From positions 1-22,649 of the IMG/VR virus record IMGVR_UViG_3300010392_000141: 22,649 nt of DNA; one strand, written 5' to 3'. Numbering within the stretch: position 1 is the first letter of the stretch; each line of letters starts with the position of its first letter. The DNA comes from a virus. Of this stretch, positions 4,755-15,230 are shown piece by piece. The position numbers and the translations under genes are program-made. A model generated the notes under the pieces. That model ran no database searches and had not been told where the DNA came from. It saw nothing but the letters and a program-made list of their open reading frames with translations.

Positions 4755-6325
4755 CACACAGCCCTCTCATTGAATGTTGGGAATTTGTATCGACTCTCAC
4801 CTTGAGCGTCGCAGATGTACAGGTTTTCCTTCGTCCGACTTGCCCCGACATAGAAAACGCGGTGTTCTTCGTCCCGGTATTTCGTCCCCCGGTTGAATAT
4901 TTTGGCCGTCTGTCTTGCCATATCCGGCAACAAAAGCACGTTATCGGCTTCCCCGCCCTTTACCCCGTGAATAGTCGACAGCGTAACGCGCGGATTCAGC
5001 AAGCTTTCGCCGTTTTCGCGCACTCGGCGGTAATAGGCGCGCTTTTTTTCCGGGATTTTATAGAGCGTATCCCACCAGTTCGCTGAAATGTCAGCCAGCA
5101 AACCGAATTCGTCCCGCAGTTCGTCGTAACACAGCACGGCGTCGTCCGCCAGATCGGCAACGCGGATTTTCGCGCCGTACGCAACGTGTTTCTTGGTCGT
5201 CAGAACGTCGTATAGCTGTTTTACGCGGCCGCCGGCTACGCACTCACCCTTTGCCAGCGCTGCCCACGCGTGAATCGCCCCCATGTCGTCAGGTTTGATT
5301 ATATCGTAATCGCTGCGCTTGATCGGAACGCCTTTGTTAATCAGCCACGTTTGCGCCGACTTTAAAAACGCGTTATTACGTGACAACACCATCCAATCGC
5401 CGCCTTCCAGTATCGGCGCTTCACCCAGTTTTTTCACGTTCGTAACAATTCCTTCCCCTTCGCGGTGTGTCCACTGCTTTTCGTACCGTTCGGTAATTTT
5501 TCCAGCAATCCAGTTCGCCAACATCCACGGCCGGCGCGGCAGGCGCCACGACTTCGACAGCACCCGGCGTTCGCCTTCAAGGTTCAGGAACTGCCCAACG
5601 TCGGCCCCGTTCCACTGGTAAATAGCTTGATCGTCGTCGCCGGCGATATACAGTTCCTTGACGCCGGAAAACATGTGGTTGACGAAATCCCACTGCGTCG
5701 CCGTCAGGTCCTGCGCTTCGTCGATAATGGCAATGTCAACGTCAAGTGGTGGATATTCAAGCTTTACGGGGTCAATTATCAGGTCGGTGAAATCACGCAG
5801 ACCGAACGTTTGCTTGTAGGCGTTCAGCTCGGCCGCCAGCGCTTTGAATTCCTTGCCGCTGCGCCCTACACTGTAATACAGTGCGTCAAGTGGTAGCGAC
5901 AACAGGTATTCGCCAAGTGGCAGCTTCATGTTTCTAGCCACGTCGACCATACTTAACAAGTGGTTGCCAACGTTGACGTTGCGCTGTTCTGTGCTTGTCC
6001 AGTTGGTTTTCTGCCCGGTAAGGTTCTGCAACCCGATCCGGTCGCCGATTTCCTTGTAGTTTTCCGCGTGCATGAAGTCGTCATTTTTCAATGACATAAC
6101 CCGCGCCGCCAACGAATGCAGCGTGCGGAAATATGGGAAATCTTCCGCCGTGTGGTCGAACCGATCCATTGCACGGCCGCGCGCTTCGTATGCCGCCTTT
6201 TGTGTGAACGACACGTACGCGATTTTTTCCGGCGGCACACCGCGCGTCAGGCATTCGTCGACGATATCAAGTAACGACGTCGTTTTGCCTGTGCCCGGCG
6301 GTCCCAGTATTAACTGCCGCTTCAA
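4754..6325 (-). CDS. UvrD/Rep-type superfamily 1 DNA helicase, 523 aa
   Basis: All main SF1A motifs are visible: Walker A GPPGTGKT (8-15), motif II DEAQD (202-206), motif III GDDDQAIYQWNGAD (229-242), motif IV around SKSWRLPR (257-264), motif V IHGVKGGEADNV (452-463) and motif VI YVGASRTKENLY (492-503). It should be an ATP-driven 3'-5' ssDNA translocase. At 523 residues it is shorter than cellular UvrD (about 720), as in other phage versions. Its start overlaps the stop of the primase gene by ATGA. With no hexameric replicative helicase in the window, it may help unwinding at forks or in recombination. Confidence 0.92.
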   Translation of the reverse strand: MKRQLILGPPGTGKTTSLLDIVDECLTRGVPPEKIAYVSFTQKAAYEARGRAMDRFDHTAEDFPYFRTLHSLAARVMSLKNDDFMHAENYKEIGDRIGLQNLTGQKTNWTSTEQRNVNVGNHLLSMVDVARNMKLPLGEYLLSLPLDALYYSVGRSGKEFKALAAELNAYKQTFGLRDFTDLIIDPVKLEYPPLDVDIAIIDEAQDLTATQWDFVNHMFSGVKELYIAGDDDQAIYQWNGADVGQFLNLEGERRVLSKSWRLPRRPWMLANWIAGKITERYEKQWTHREGEGIVTNVKKLGEAPILEGGDWMVLSRNNAFLKSAQTWLINKGVPIKRSDYDIIKPDDMGAIHAWAALAKGECVAGGRVKQLYDVLTTKKHVAYGAKIRVADLADDAVLCYDELRDEFGLLADISANWWDTLYKIPEKKRAYYRRVRENGESLLNPRVTLSTIHGVKGGEADNVLLLPDMARQTAKIFNRGTKYRDEEHRVFYVGASRTKENLYICDAQGESRYKFPTFNERAV

Positions 6326-7884
6326 AACTCCAGCCTGTCGGCGTAATCGTTGTCAGACGCGACCTTTCCTGTGCGTATGAACGATTCCGGAACAACCCAG
6401 TAGTTCAACTTGCGGTTGCCGGTCGCCGTGGTGCTTTTCTTTTCAAGCCCAAGGTTGCGCAACTGATTCCACAGCACGTTTGCGACCTTGACCGGGTACC
6501 TGTGTTGCTGTAAATACTTCGAAAAGTGTTCGAAATGAAACAGATACGACCCGTTTTCGAATAGCACCATTCCGCCCAGTATGTCGACGCGTGATTGCGC
6601 TTCCGGCGCCACTTCAATGTAGTCTTTCAGGAACGCGCCAAGGCTGGCCGTTTCGGTCAGTTCGTATGGTATTTCGACAACTTCGTGATTCATCAACCAG
6701 TGTTGAATCATTTGGTCCCACATGTTGTTGTTCATTCGCGGCGGCATTTTATCGAGTTTTTCAAACACCTTTTCGCGGAATTTCACATTGCTGGTCAGTT
6801 CGGGCCGCGAAAATTGGACGTCCCGGCCGTTGATCGAAATAATGTACCGCGGCGGTTCGTCCATCTGTTCGCCGGCTGCGTTCACCTGCACAAGCTTGCG
6901 TATCCCTTCAATGTTCCAATCGTCCCACACCTGCACAAGTGCGCCCATAACGCCGAATTCGCGGGTTTGGCACAACGGCTTGTTGCACACTTCCGCGCAC
7001 ACCGGTTCTTTGCATAGATAGCCGTACTCTTTGTCGCCGGCAAGCGACTTGAATATTGTTGCCTGAACTTCCTTGAACGGCAGCGACGGGCTGAAGTATT
7101 CGCCGTTCCATTCAAGCACTTTTTCTTCCCAGTCTTCGCCGTGCTTTTTCTTCGCGAACACTGCGAACTGAAACAGCGCTTTGTTGCGCTCACCGTCGCC
7201 GACTCCGGATGTGGCCATTTGCTGAATGCAAGGTGGCGCGTCTGAAAATGGTATATCCTGACTGACGACTTTCTGCGCTTCGAAATCTTCGGGCAGAACG
7301 CGCTTGCTTTCCGCGTAGTCAAGGAACGCTTCAAAGTCCGCAATCGGCTGGCTGTCGTCGTCGAATGCGTACCGCGCGGTGTATTTCGCGTTGAAGTACG
7401 GCAGGTTTATCCAGTTGCCGACTTGCCCCTTTTCAAGTTTTTCTTGTTTCGGGAATATTTCGATTTTCGGGTACCCAAGCGTTCGCGCCAGATCGCCAAG
7501 CTTTTTGCGCACGGGTCCCGCGTCCATCGGTTCGGCAAAGAACATATACAGATGTGCGCCGCCTGATTTGGATTTGCACCAAACGAACGGAAAGCCGGAT
7601 TTTTTCGCGTCGGTAACGAACCGCTTAACCGCGAATTCATCGTACACGTCGAAGTCGACGGCCGCGAAATTACACGTGCCTTCGTCGGTTATCGGCACAA
7701 TGCCAATGCCGTATTCGCCCGACAAGTGGGCTCCCCAGTGCTCCCGGGTCACTTCGCCTTCAACGGTCTTTGCGCTGCCTTCAACCTTGTTGTCGCGCGC
7801 TCGAGGGTCGCCTTTTTCGCGGAATTCGCCGTGCGCCCTGTCAAGGCCTGAAAATAATTTGCTTATTCGTTCGATATTATCCAT
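6322..7884 (-). CDS. Archaeo-eukaryotic-type primase (TOTE-like), 520 aa
   Basis: The catalytic core shows VDFDVYD (Asp77 and Asp79, metal ligands), SGGAHLYMFF (His111, nucleotide binding) and EIFPKQ (Glu142, third acidic residue), the three AEP motifs in the TOTE-conflict style with its FPKQ tail. Further on, residues 229-280 (GDGERNKALFQFAVFAKKKH onward) fit a primase C-terminal helical domain. Cysteines 291, 296, 300 and 305 form a likely metal site. The C-terminal 200 residues are not recognised. It should make primers for DNA synthesis, perhaps also acting as polymerase. It begins just after a terminator-like hairpin and overlaps the helicase gene. Confidence 0.88.
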   Translation of the reverse strand: MDNIERISKLFSGLDRAHGEFREKGDPRARDNKVEGSAKTVEGEVTREHWGAHLSGEYGIGIVPITDEGTCNFAAVDFDVYDEFAVKRFVTDAKKSGFPFVWCKSKSGGAHLYMFFAEPMDAGPVRKKLGDLARTLGYPKIEIFPKQEKLEKGQVGNWINLPYFNAKYTARYAFDDDSQPIADFEAFLDYAESKRVLPEDFEAQKVVSQDIPFSDAPPCIQQMATSGVGDGERNKALFQFAVFAKKKHGEDWEEKVLEWNGEYFSPSLPFKEVQATIFKSLAGDKEYGYLCKEPVCAEVCNKPLCQTREFGVMGALVQVWDDWNIEGIRKLVQVNAAGEQMDEPPRYIISINGRDVQFSRPELTSNVKFREKVFEKLDKMPPRMNNNMWDQMIQHWLMNHEVVEIPYELTETASLGAFLKDYIEVAPEAQSRVDILGGMVLFENGSYLFHFEHFSKYLQQHRYPVKVANVLWNQLRNLGLEKKSTTATGNRKLNYWVVPESFIRTGKVASDNDYADRLEF

Positions 7885-9780: not shown

Positions 9781-11247
9781 TTAAAGCCATGACGTCGGGT
9801 CGTCTTGCATAATGACGTCCGATATGCTCTTTTTGGTCCGCCGTGCGGTTATAATTTTCGTGTCGATCGTCTTTTCCGCTTCTAAATCTACATAAGTCAC
9901 CTTGTCAGTTTGCCCTATACGGTGCGCCCTGTCCTCGCTTTGTAATCTCGCTTCCAATGAAAAGTCATTGCTGTAGTATATTACAGTCTTTGCCTGTGTG
10001 AGTGTCAAGCCATAACCGCCGGAATGCTGCTGTCCGACGAAGAAAAGGCATGTGTCGTCGTTCTGAAAACGGTCAACGTTCACTTCGCGGTCGTGCTTAT
10101 CGACGCCGCCGTGGTACTGTACAACAGATTTGCGGCCATATTCCTTCATAAGCGTGTCGCTGATCGCCTGAAGTTCGGCACGGAACCGGGCCCAAATAAT
10201 AAGTTTACCGTCTGGCAACGCCTCTTCGACGACGTCGGCAAGTGCTGCCAAACGGTTGTTCGGCCCCGGTATAGGTACCGCGGGCGCGTACTCTTCCGCC
10301 GGTATGAACCCGCCCAGAACCTGCTGTAATCGCAACAGCTTCGTCAGAACGTTGGCAACGCTGATTTCTTCCCCATGCGTCAGTTCATACAAGCTCTTTG
10401 ACTTGATGTCGTTGTATAGCTTCGCCTGTTCGGTACTCACCGGTACCAGACGCCGCTCAAAAATCTTGTCCGGCAGGTCCAGACATTCGTCTTTCGTCAC
10501 GCGGTAGCTTACCGCTTGAATTTTCCGCGTCAGTTCGTCCATGTTCTTGTAGCATACAAGCGAGTCGTAATGCTTGTTCGTCTTGCGGTTCAATTCCCGC
10601 TTCCATTCAGCATACCGATGTTTGAAACTGTAAAAATTGTCGAACCCAAGGTATTTCGTACCAAGGAAGCCCATTTGCGCGAAGGCGTCAAGCGGCCCGT
10701 TCGTAATCAGGGTTCCGGTCATGATCCGGCGGAACGCTGCGCGCTTGCCAAGGGTCGTCAGGGTTTTTGTGCGCTTGGCGCCCGGCGTCTTTATCTTGCT
10801 TGATTCGTCGACACAGATAATTGTCGGGAATGCGTTCACCAACTGGGCAAGGAACTTGGCCGCTTTGCCGGTCATACCACTGCCGAACGCTTCGATATTC
10901 ATTGCCACGACGCGCAGCCCGGGCCCTTCGTCCCACAGTTTTTCGATTTCCTTTTTCTCGGCCGCCTTCATGGTCGACGCCCAGACCGCCGCGCGGTACC
11001 GGGTCCATTCCGGCATATGCGCCGGCACTTCGCGCAGAATCCAATTGCGGTGCACGCCGTTTGGCGCAATGACTACCAAACACCGGACCTTGTCGCGCGC
11101 CCACAACCACGCCGCGGTATCGCAACCAACCTTCGACTTGCCCGTACCCATGCCCATTAAAAACGCAAAGTCGGTATCATCCCGGCTCAGTTTAAAGACT
11201 TTGTCTTGATGGTCAAAGGGTTTAGTCTTGTAATCGTAATCAAGCAT
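9781..11247 (-). CDS. SNF2-type superfamily 2 helicase/ATPase, 488 aa
   Basis: Walker A is MGMGTGKSK (31-39), motif Ia region VVIAPNGV, motif II VDESS (146-150; a DESS variant of DEAH), motif III MTGTLITNGP (176-185), motif V GYGLTLTQA (about 411-419) and motif VI QSEDRAHRIGQ (436-446). The RAHRIGQ motif is typical of SNF2/RapA translocases. These proteins move on dsDNA using ATP and remodel protein-DNA complexes; in phages they sit in replication or recombination modules. It is the first gene of the left replication operon, driven from 11282-11309. There is no nuclease domain attached. Confidence 0.92.
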   Translation of the reverse strand: MLDYDYKTKPFDHQDKVFKLSRDDTDFAFLMGMGTGKSKVGCDTAAWLWARDKVRCLVVIAPNGVHRNWILREVPAHMPEWTRYRAAVWASTMKAAEKKEIEKLWDEGPGLRVVAMNIEAFGSGMTGKAAKFLAQLVNAFPTIICVDESSKIKTPGAKRTKTLTTLGKRAAFRRIMTGTLITNGPLDAFAQMGFLGTKYLGFDNFYSFKHRYAEWKRELNRKTNKHYDSLVCYKNMDELTRKIQAVSYRVTKDECLDLPDKIFERRLVPVSTEQAKLYNDIKSKSLYELTHGEEISVANVLTKLLRLQQVLGGFIPAEEYAPAVPIPGPNNRLAALADVVEEALPDGKLIIWARFRAELQAISDTLMKEYGRKSVVQYHGGVDKHDREVNVDRFQNDDTCLFFVGQQHSGGYGLTLTQAKTVIYYSNDFSLEARLQSEDRAHRIGQTDKVTYVDLEAEKTIDTKIITARRTKKSISDVIMQDDPTSWL

Positions 11248-11281: not shown

Positions 11282-11309
11282 ATCTTACCGCGCGGCCGTT
11301 AACTGTCAA
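11282..11309 (-). promoter_or_regulatory. Sigma70-type promoter for the replication operon
   Basis: Minus strand TTGACA (11304-11309), 16 bases, TAAGAT (11282-11287), 35 bases before the helicase ATG. The left copy of the 23-bp inverted repeat ends 7 bases upstream of the -35, where an activator or UP-like element would act. Confidence 0.65.
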
Positions 11310-11315
11310 CCACGC

Positions 11316-11338
11316 AAACTTCCCTATAAGAGAAATAC
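11316..11338 (+). repeat. 23-bp inverted repeat, left copy
   Basis: AAACTTCCCTATAA followed by GAGAAATAC. It matches the reverse complement of 11575-11597 at 22 of 23 positions. Read on the minus strand its end is TTATAGGGAAG, reminiscent of the core of T7-family promoters (CTATAGGGAG). It sits just upstream of the replication promoter. Confidence 0.85.
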
Positions 11339-11342
11339 CTAC

Positions 11343-11517
11343 TATACCACCCCTTTTTCATTTTGTCTCAAAAAACCCGATACCCATATTGCAAGCGTGG
11401 TTGAAGAGTAGAGTCATGCCAATTTTGTATACCATGTATACCATAGTCTAGTATTTGCTTGGTATACAGTTCGGCGTTGATTTATAAGGGGAAACAGGTC
11501 AATATACCAGTATACCA
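11343..11517. repeat. Cluster of six TATACCA/TGGTATA sites (iteron-like)
   Basis: TATACCA occurs at 11343-11349; TGTATACCA twice in tandem at 11426-11434 and 11435-11443; the inverted form TGGTATACA at 11460-11468; and ATATACCA then GTATACCA in tandem at 11502-11509 and 11510-11517. The two tandem pairs have 9- and 8-bp periods. The core GTATAC is itself palindromic. Such arrays bind an initiator or a dimeric repressor. No candidate binder is obvious in the window. Confidence 0.75.
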
Positions 11518-11574
11518 TACCCTAGAGAAAATTAAGGGTCATTTTGGGGACTTCAATTTTTTGCCTAGTATATA

Positions 11575-11597
11575 GTATTTCTATTATAGGGAAGTTT
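11575..11597 (-). repeat. 23-bp inverted repeat, right copy
   Basis: The minus strand reads AAACTTCCCTATAA then TAGAAATAC, one mismatch from the left copy. It contains a perfect TATAAT and follows the terminator T-run directly. A -35 at the right distance is not evident, so it need not be a promoter. Confidence 0.85.
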
Positions 11598-11598
11598 T

Positions 11599-11622
11599 AA
11601 AAAGCCCAGCCCGCCCGGCTGG
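11599..11622 (-). terminator. Rho-independent terminator after the spanin gene
   Basis: On the minus strand CCAGCC-GGGCG-GGCTGG forms a perfect 6-bp stem, followed by GC and TTTTT (11599-11603). It lies about 30 bases after the Rz1-like gene and would end the late transcript before the control region. Confidence 0.8.
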
Positions 11623-11649
11623 AAGCGTACCGATTTGGCGGACTGGGAA

Positions 11650-13215: not shown

Positions 13216-13695
13216 TTATTTTTCCCGTGAAATCCAGTGATCCCAATTAGCATAATTTCTTACCTTTTTGATTTCGTTCAAATTTAGCGCAGATATTCCT
13301 ATTCCGGAATATGCGTCGTGTCTAATACCGATGTCGACCGCCATTACCGCGTCGGCGCCAGCTTCCATTGCGCCCATGGCCAGATCGCAGCCACTGCCCC
13401 ACGAATCGAATTGACCATAAACCGGCATGGGTACCATGTTTGAATCGTATTCTACAAGCTCGCCCGTGTTCAGGTCAACAACAACAATCGTCGTGTCGTC
13501 GCTGATATGCCACCCGTTGTCGGGTTTGCCGTCCTGCCACCAGTCGCGGAACTTCAAGCCGTCCGATAACACGCCGGCAACCGCAATCACGGCGCCCTTG
13601 ACTGCCCACATTTTCGCGCATTCCTTCCGGCCGTTCCCGCAAGTGGTCTGCCGGTCGGATGCCAGAATGCCGTCCTTGTAGGCAATCGTCGTCAT
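13216..13695 (-). CDS. HslV/proteasome beta-like Ntn hydrolase, 159 aa
   Basis: The protein begins MTTIAYKDGILASDRQTT, matching HslV (MTTI followed by a Gly-Asp segment), so after Met removal Thr2 would be the nucleophile, with Asp14 and Lys28 in the usual supporting places. GSGCDLAMGAMEAGADA (100-116) fits the GSG...A..A.AL.. helix, with Ser101. Known HslV is about 175 residues and acts with HslU ATPase; no ATPase partner is here. The start overlaps the upstream stop by ATGA. In phages such proteins may be head proteases or protease mimics; the role here is unknown. Confidence 0.8.
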   Translation of the reverse strand: MTTIAYKDGILASDRQTTCGNGRKECAKMWAVKGAVIAVAGVLSDGLKFRDWWQDGKPDNGWHISDDTTIVVVDLNTGELVEYDSNMVPMPVYGQFDSWGSGCDLAMGAMEAGADAVMAVDIGIRHDAYSGIGISALNLNEIKKVRNYANWDHWISREK

Positions 13696-15230
13696 AACTT
13701 CCAACGACCATCAATGACGTGCAACAACGATCGCTTGCCGTTCGCGTACACAACGCAGTTCGTGTGCAACCAACTTGACGGCCCGCGGTTGTACTGAACC
13801 TTCAACTTGCTGTTCGTGCCAACCTGAAAACAGCCCTCTTCAATTCCCGGGCTGTGACTGTGGCCGATTACGGATTTCACGCCGATTCGTCGCAGGTTCT
13901 TGATGCTTCCCCGGGCGCCGTTCGGCCCGATGTCGCCGTGCATGCCAAGTTCAATGCCCATTGCCGCATAGGCTTCGTCACGCAATAGTAACTTATGTGG
14001 TACTTTCAGCAGTTCCCGTGCCCAGTGTGAAAACGGGTCGACGGTGCTTGCGCCACTTTCCGTCATTTCTGTTTGTTGGACCATTGCAAGCGCTGTTTCC
14101 AGATAGAATTCCATGTTTGCCGGGTCGCTGCGCCAGTCGGTTTCCTTGATCCATCGGGACAACCCTTCGTTGTGGTTGCTCGGCACAATGATGTTTTCGC
14201 GCCCGGCGCCGTACTGGTTGACGTAATCGCAGGTCAGTTCGACTTCTGCGCGAACGCACGACATTTGCGCACGGTGCTTGGCCAGTGCGATAAATGGATT
14301 TTTCTGGTCGTGGTGGTTGCGGGTGTAGTTGTCGAAAACGTCGTGCCAGACGAACCGCCGCGGATTGAGTACGGCGGCCATAGACTGCGGACCGTCGAAA
14401 TTAGCGTGCGCAACCTGTTCGTCTGCGAATGCTGCATGCGTATCACCAAATATTAAAGCGGCAGCCGGCGGCGCCTGTTCAACACCCTGCGGAGTGTACT
14501 TTTTATCCTTGTCAATGAAGGATCCGTTTTTGCAAGCGCTCAATTGTCGCAGGTAAAAAACGTCGTTTTCAATCTCAACGACAACGGCCCCGAACGAATG
14601 GTGGAAGTCGCCTTTTTTGCCGGCTACCGTATCGGTGTAGTTTCCCACGGTGCATGCGCCGGTCGTCGTCATTAGTTTGGGCAGTTTGTGGTTCGGGGTC
14701 GCAACGGATTTCAGTTGAACTTTCGGGTGCGCAAGGATGCCGGAACACGCCCCCGTTATCGCTTCGAACCCTGTCAGCGGTAAAACTGCGGTCGGCTGTG
14801 TCCGGATGTCGCCCAGCAGTATTAGGTTTTCATTAAGTGCGGCCCGGGACGAATACAGGTACGGCATGACGTCGTCGTGCCACCAATCGTCGTCTTGTTG
14901 CTGTTGCCCCCACTGACTTGTAGCGTTCTTGTACCTGATCGGCACGACAACCAACTGCGCGTCGTTGTGATCGCAGTAAACTTGCAGGGTTTTCAGTGAT
15001 ATATGCGGCGGCGTCGCGTTCTGCGCGGCAGTGATTACGAACCGCGCGGACGTCGGCAGGTTTCGTTCGAACTGCTTATACGTCGGCGGTGCTGTCGGTG
15101 CTTTGTCAAGTGGATTCGCTGTTGTCTTGTGGCATTCCTTGCACTTGTACATCTGTTGCTTCCCATGCTGGCGAACCCGCGACCCGTTCTTTATCAGCGA
15201 ACCGCGTTCGCCACAGTGCGGACAATACAT
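13692..15230 (-). CDS. T5 A1-like metallophosphoesterase with N-terminal zinc ribbon, 512 aa
   Basis: Cysteines 3, 6, 30 and 33 (CPHC and CKEC) form a zinc ribbon like that of IS1 InsA or TFIIS-type proteins. Calcineurin-like phosphoesterase motifs follow: GDTH (262-265), HD at 296-297, SNHNE (351-355) and GHSHS (456-460). Residues 140-230, including GDIRTQPTAVLPLTGFEAIT and TTTGACTVGNY, match what I recall of T5 A1-type DNA transfer proteins, which are needed for host DNA breakdown and second-step transfer in T5. A strong AAGGGG lies 5 bases before ATG. The zinc ribbon suggests nucleic acid contact. A DNA nuclease or phosphatase role is inferred from the family. Confidence 0.75.
   Translation of the reverse strand: MYCPHCGERGSLIKNGSRVRQHGKQQMYKCKECHKTTANPLDKAPTAPPTYKQFERNLPTSARFVITAAQNATPPHISLKTLQVYCDHNDAQLVVVPIRYKNATSQWGQQQQDDDWWHDDVMPYLYSSRAALNENLILLGDIRTQPTAVLPLTGFEAITGACSGILAHPKVQLKSVATPNHKLPKLMTTTGACTVGNYTDTVAGKKGDFHHSFGAVVVEIENDVFYLRQLSACKNGSFIDKDKKYTPQGVEQAPPAAALIFGDTHAAFADEQVAHANFDGPQSMAAVLNPRRFVWHDVFDNYTRNHHDQKNPFIALAKHRAQMSCVRAEVELTCDYVNQYGAGRENIIVPSNHNEGLSRWIKETDWRSDPANMEFYLETALAMVQQTEMTESGASTVDPFSHWARELLKVPHKLLLRDEAYAAMGIELGMHGDIGPNGARGSIKNLRRIGVKSVIGHSHSPGIEEGCFQVGTNSKLKVQYNRGPSSWLHTNCVVYANGKRSLLHVIDGRWKL

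Follow-up and report, generated by a model that had tools for sequence, protein, structure and literature searches.

We find that a gene-free control block in the DNA of an uncultured phage (IMG/VR record IMGVR_UViG_3300010392_000141, positions 1-22,649; this whole stretch of 22,649 nt is referred to as the window) is one member of a conserved family of cis-elements. The comparison of related blocks confirmed that el1, the copy in the window, and el2, a second copy in front of terS, form a real family with two copies per genome, beyond chance. The copies mark the two points at which the map passes between its replication part and its late part, and judging by its organisation the block probably acts as a master switch or as a replication start site. 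The carriers are an unclassified lineage of tailed phages.

The block of the window and its immediate surroundings comprise the following features:

9781-11247, minus strand: SNF2-type helicase gene (phrog_62), the first gene of the replication module beside el1
11282-11309, minus strand: sigma70-type promoter TTGACA-16-TAAGAT, just outside arm D; the TTGACA is retained in the el1 of L004, L053 and G004
11316-11338, minus strand: gene-side arm D, GTATTTCTCTTATAGGGAAGTTT, reading toward the SNF2 gene (inverted-repeat search and arm scan)
11342-11349, minus strand: single site TGGTATAG, abutting the gene-side arm (site search, arm comparison)
11388-11401, minus strand: conserved ACCACGCTTGCAAT block, which adjoins the gene-side arm in el1 and el2 alike
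11426-11443, minus strand: GGTATA direct pair C (TGTATACCATGTATACCA on the plus strand), period 9 (site search and comparison of relatives)
11460-11467, plus strand: inverted single site TGGTATAC, retained in L004 and L053 and altered in the el1 of G004
11470-11482, minus strand: counterpart of the el2 IHF-like site, degenerate (AATCAACGCCGAA) and not matching the consensus (el1/el2 alignments)
11502-11517, minus strand: GGTATA direct pair A (ATATACCAGTATACCA on the plus strand), period 8, a conserved pair in the el1/el2 alignments
11575-11597, plus strand: upstream (outer) arm U, GTATTTCTATTATAGGGAAGTTT, reading outward, with a counterpart in all 11 blocks
11598-11623, minus strand: Rho-independent-type terminator (stem 11623-11605 and T tail), which closes the lysis-end transcription unit and adjoins the right arm

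A sequence-only reading of this DNA had described an AT-rich interval free of genes, framed by an inverted repeat and holding six sites as two tandem pairs, one inverted and one single copy, next to a promoter, and each part of that description was borne out. The two arms are 23 nt each, complementary at 22 of 23 positions and 236 nt apart, and their inverted-repeat score of 20 exceeds chance (60 dinucleotide shuffles of the 1 kb around the block gave a mean of 10.8 and a maximum of 14); allowing fewer than three mismatches, the arm core TATAGGGAAGTTT occurs in the window at the two arm positions only. Between the arms the six TATACCA/TGGTATA sites start at 11343, 11428, 11437, 11460 (the inverted copy), 11503 and 11511, and the single site TGGTATAG forms a further 9-bp-spaced pair with the arm's own GGTATTTC. 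At one mismatch or fewer, the window has 26 occurrences of GTATACCA where 10.0 would be expected, and none of 100 shuffles reached the observed number. The block is also the AT-richest 290-bp stretch of the window (64.5%). Two features were absent from the earlier description, namely the GTAT(A/T) half-repeats within and beside the arms and the terminator, which is found at the matching position in the el1 of L004, L053 and G004.

All recognised genes of the window lie on the minus strand. The SNF2 helicase heads a module with an AEP-type primase (window 6322-7884, minus strand, Pfam AEP-TOTE match) and a second, UvrD-like helicase, and this module includes relatives of phage Pam3 gp32-gp34. 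On its other side el1 follows the terminator ending the lysis-end genes, which encode endolysin, an A1-like protein, a dNMP kinase, a spanin and endonuclease VII. The A1-like protein, akin to the T5 A1 "DNA transfer protein" (phrog_1745; 13692-15230, minus strand), adjoins the endolysin region, and the phage lineage carrying it has genomes of roughly 55-67 kb. An HslV-family peptidase-like protein (phrog_1040; 13216-13704, minus strand) overlaps the reading frame of the dNMP kinase.

In every member of the clade whose sequence includes the block position the anatomy of el1 is kept. In L004 (SNF2 92% identical in amino acids) both arms are present and lengthened to 29 nt, and the terminator, GGTATA pairs, inverted single site, ACGCTTGCAAT block and TTGACA are likewise retained. 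In L053 and L054 (SNF2 72%) the plan is unchanged and both arms are altered alike, CTC becoming TTT with one extra G/C. All SNF2 relatives of at least 67% identity carry el1, which at 67% (G004) is present in a degenerate form, and relatives of 38-49% identity are without the block. Thus the counter-case named in the sequence-only reading, the same replication genes lacking both repeats, does exist outside the clade (SNF2 at most 49%) and does not occur inside it (at least 67%). Upstream of the homologous SNF2-like helicase gene of YuA the region appeared unrelated by eye.

When viral contigs were scanned for the arm sequence, a second framed block came to light in G001, a 51-kb contig that carries an el1 as well. 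This el2, at 38264-38595, lies between a small HTH gene and terS-terL-portal, and the same arrangement is seen in L064, L073 and L079. A survey based on TerL, and so unbiased with respect to the arms, placed a block upstream of terS in L064, L073, L079, L095 and G001, with degenerate arms in L094 and G004; the L092 upstream region was too short to judge, and L097 includes one arm only. The block was present in every genome with TerL of at least 69% identity and an upstream region, and none of the TerL relatives below 60% had an arm-framed block. The el2 of the window's own phage is deduced from these relatives, because the window ends before it. Most single-arm matches of the pattern scan (L063, L065, L066, L068, L070, L071 and L075-L078) show one good arm and few or no sites, and were rejected as chance; a second arm scan also matched L087-L089.

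Some el2 regions hold additional sequences. The interiors in L094, L095, L069 and L098 carry a further dyad-like motif, TTTAGAGTNNACTCTAAA, with half copies, which suggests a second regulator of the late block, and in L095 the stretch from the gene-side arm to terS contains further TATACCA/TGGTATA sites in inverted orientation (1517-1580). An unrelated repeat-rich region precedes terL in L116 (2240-2544) and L137 (961-1277), with TerL of 51-54% identity, and consists of GTCACCAAGTAA repeats in both orientations and inverted repeats of 40-52 nt.

Taken over 11 blocks from the window's lineage, the el1 and el2 copies measure about 240-350 bp, and in all 11 the arms face outward and GGTATA-type direct pairs are present. 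The count of GGTATA is 40, where 5.9 would be expected, and that of its direct pairs is 23, where 0.2 would be expected. The IHF consensus is found in seven blocks (0.39 expected), six of which are el2; it is perfect and at a constant position in six of seven el2 blocks while its N positions vary (TAAG, TGGG, CAGG), and its el1 counterpart is degenerate. Arm similarity is higher within a block than between blocks (0.94 vs 0.83; permutation p about 0.0006 for the seven clear blocks), a p-value that overstates independence because the blocks share ancestry, which the permutation and shuffle tests leave in place. The gene-side arms of el1 and el2 in G004 share a variant, GGTATACGTGTTTATA, not seen in the other genomes, and this suggests adaptation to a genome-specific binding protein.

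The positions of both copies can be read from G004, a 67,047-bp contig that we treat as a complete circular genome because its ends match over 144 bp, an overlap that may be an assembly artefact in a record that IMG/VR does not class as complete. Its map is one-directional, as judged by ORF lists, matches to window proteins and overall skew, and the two blocks split it into replication and late parts. From el1, at about 53.8-54.0 kb, it leads into the replication genes, a part that ends with a gene for a tandem-XRE protein; from el2, at 15.85-16.13 kb, it leads into packaging, structure and lysis, a late part that runs up to el1. In G004, and likewise in G001, no 300-bp windows are richer in AT than those of the two blocks, and the gene-side arm motif GTTTATA(T)GGGAAG occurs in G004 at el1 and el2 only.

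In all seven genomes aligned, el2 is located between the tandem-XRE regulator gene, directly upstream, and terS/terL; the window itself stops short of this gene. The protein of 112-129 aa contains two Pfam HTH_31 stretches and invariant WRRR/RRR motifs, and its predicted structure (pLDDT 87.6) consists of two HTH units, the closest solved structures being XRE/CI-type regulators, matched weakly and with no E-value below 0.03. A protein with tandem HTH units would suit direct pairs spaced by 8-9 bp. In phage lambda the late regulator Q is encoded in the matching position before the late region.

Based on these data, all of them from sequence comparison, we favour, at an even chance, the reading that el1 and el2 are nucleoprotein control regions for early and late transcription, to which the tandem-XRE protein and IHF are candidates for binding, because both copies are at operon heads, carry regulator-like repeats and one lies beside a regulator gene. 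In the mechanism that we infer, as regards protein binding, looping, direction of regulation and identity of the regulator alike, each block would be a multi-site assembly platform with arms at both ends and GGTATA pairs within, to which el2 adds an IHF bend site. A phage DNA-binding protein, with the tandem-XRE protein, whose gene directly precedes el2, as the leading candidate, would occupy the pairs and arms, bending would help fold the block into a loop, and the folded block would set how active the promoter next to arm D is, thereby controlling the SNF2/primase operon in the case of el1 and the terS/late operon in that of el2. As the same sites are found at both heads, one regulator could repress one part while activating the other. 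The claim that the block controls the replication promoter would be only half of the picture, since the second copy heads the packaging/late operon.

Several observations speak against transcription control. No convincing sigma70 promoter was found in the gene direction inside the el2 blocks scanned, and the spacing between arm D and TTGACA in el1 varies (about 15, 15, 8 and 22 nt), unlike that of a fixed activator site. A plain promoter model, moreover, does not need the outer arm U, which is conserved though it faces a terminator in el1 or the end of the regulator gene in el2; as this arm is kept with no gene to drive, an architectural or loop role of the arms is favoured over a simple promoter role.

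The main rival, a serious if less probable one, is that el1 and el2 are paired replication origins resembling oriL and oriR of SPP1, in which an initiator would bind the GGTATA repeats, the AT-rich interior would melt, replication would start or stall and the arms would orient the complex. In SPP1 the two origins share a similar organisation and lie about 13 kb from each other (PMC6316719), which sets a precedent. The blocks match such origins in being two similarly organised copies with direct repeats in AT-rich DNA, as in iteron regions, one of them heading replication genes; both arms point outward and are kept about equally, el2 has the IHF site, and the phages encode the AEP-type primase and, in G004, a DNA polymerase. 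However, the DnaA boxes show no convincing enrichment over the 11 blocks, with two exact boxes against 0.2 expected (those of L004 and L073; the window's block has none) and three with one mismatch allowed against 5.2, and no initiator gene was identified. The turn in GC skew looked for at an origin is missing at both blocks of G004, in which genes run one way and the skew may be transcriptional. The six arms folded were no better than shuffles, contrary to the hairpins of RSF1010 ssi-type sites, and both copies stand exactly at operon heads.

Control and origin functions can coincide. It is even conceivable, if unlikely, that the arms and GGTATA pairs which el1 and el2 share join them into a single nucleoprotein complex, so that replication start and the early-late switch in transcription are coupled; if true, this would be a two-site control system unlike that of any characterised phage.

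That el2 is a packaging site (cos or pac) and el1 its duplicate is very improbable. It abuts terS and contains the IHF consensus site, for which lambda cosB is a precedent, but el1, with arms and pairs of the same kind, is nowhere near a terminase gene, and contigs continue through both blocks. A lambda-type cos region was rejected for the window, as the position and IHF site fit el2 and not el1. We give scarcely any credence to the arms being promoters that a phage single-subunit RNA polymerase would use. There is a likeness between GTATTTCTCTTATAGGGAAGTTT and the T7-type core, TATAGGGA, and in el2 the gene-side arm stands just before terS; yet no RNA polymerase gene was recognised among the ORFs of G004 and G001 or in a PHROGs scan of ten selected G004 proteins, and the arm is present in four copies per genome only, half of them antisense. 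The PF00940 search, empty in three relatives, is uninformative because its controls were silent too. A MITE-like mobile element or an invertible segment, as the near-perfect terminal inverted repeats of 22-29 bp and two copies per genome might suggest, is largely refuted by the two fixed places across genomes and by aligned interiors conserved in one orientation; no target duplication was seen at the flanks by eye, and we regard this too as most improbable.

The anatomy conserved in the clade and the lack of known counterparts strongly support the view that the block is a genuine and so far undescribed control region. A 3.6-kb region had no DNA match in the phage collection, and the block itself gave one unusable 30-bp match among phage records (E 0.4) and none among plasmids. 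Rfam contained no match for the block, and on this ground a structured RNA was rejected. The parts of the open-access literature consulted held no description of the block family. With a candidate trans-factor named, the tandem-XRE protein, and natural variants at hand for comparison (the GGG/GGGG arms and the arm version of G004), early-to-late or replication control of an uncultured lineage becomes testable using small DNA fragments and one small protein.

Among known systems, the CI/Cro (XRE) operators and the lambda Q layout resemble el1 and el2 in having multiple short regulator-like sites at operon heads and an XRE-type gene before the late region. CI/Cro operators, however, are paired dyads, whereas the present blocks have GGTATA direct pairs, a tandem two-HTH regulator and long outward arms, with both heads alike. 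T7-type promoters share the TATAGGGA-like arm core; here, however, the arm has four copies only, half of them antisense, and no RNA polymerase gene was recognised among the G004 and G001 sequences covered. In SPP1, two AT-rich direct-repeat regions of similar organisation lie in one lytic siphophage genome, on the replication side and in the late region (PMC6316719), but oriL sits inside initiator gene 38, whereas el1 and el2 lie between genes, at operon heads, with inverted arms at their ends. The ssiA and ssiB sites of RSF1010 oriV are likewise two like sites on opposite strands, and the phages encode an AEP-type primase, yet an ssi site has a length of 40 nt and forms a hairpin (PMC4434180), unlike the arms, which fold no better than shuffles. 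A multi-site control or origin region is a known kind of phage element, and it is the el1/el2 family and its two-copy layout that appear new.
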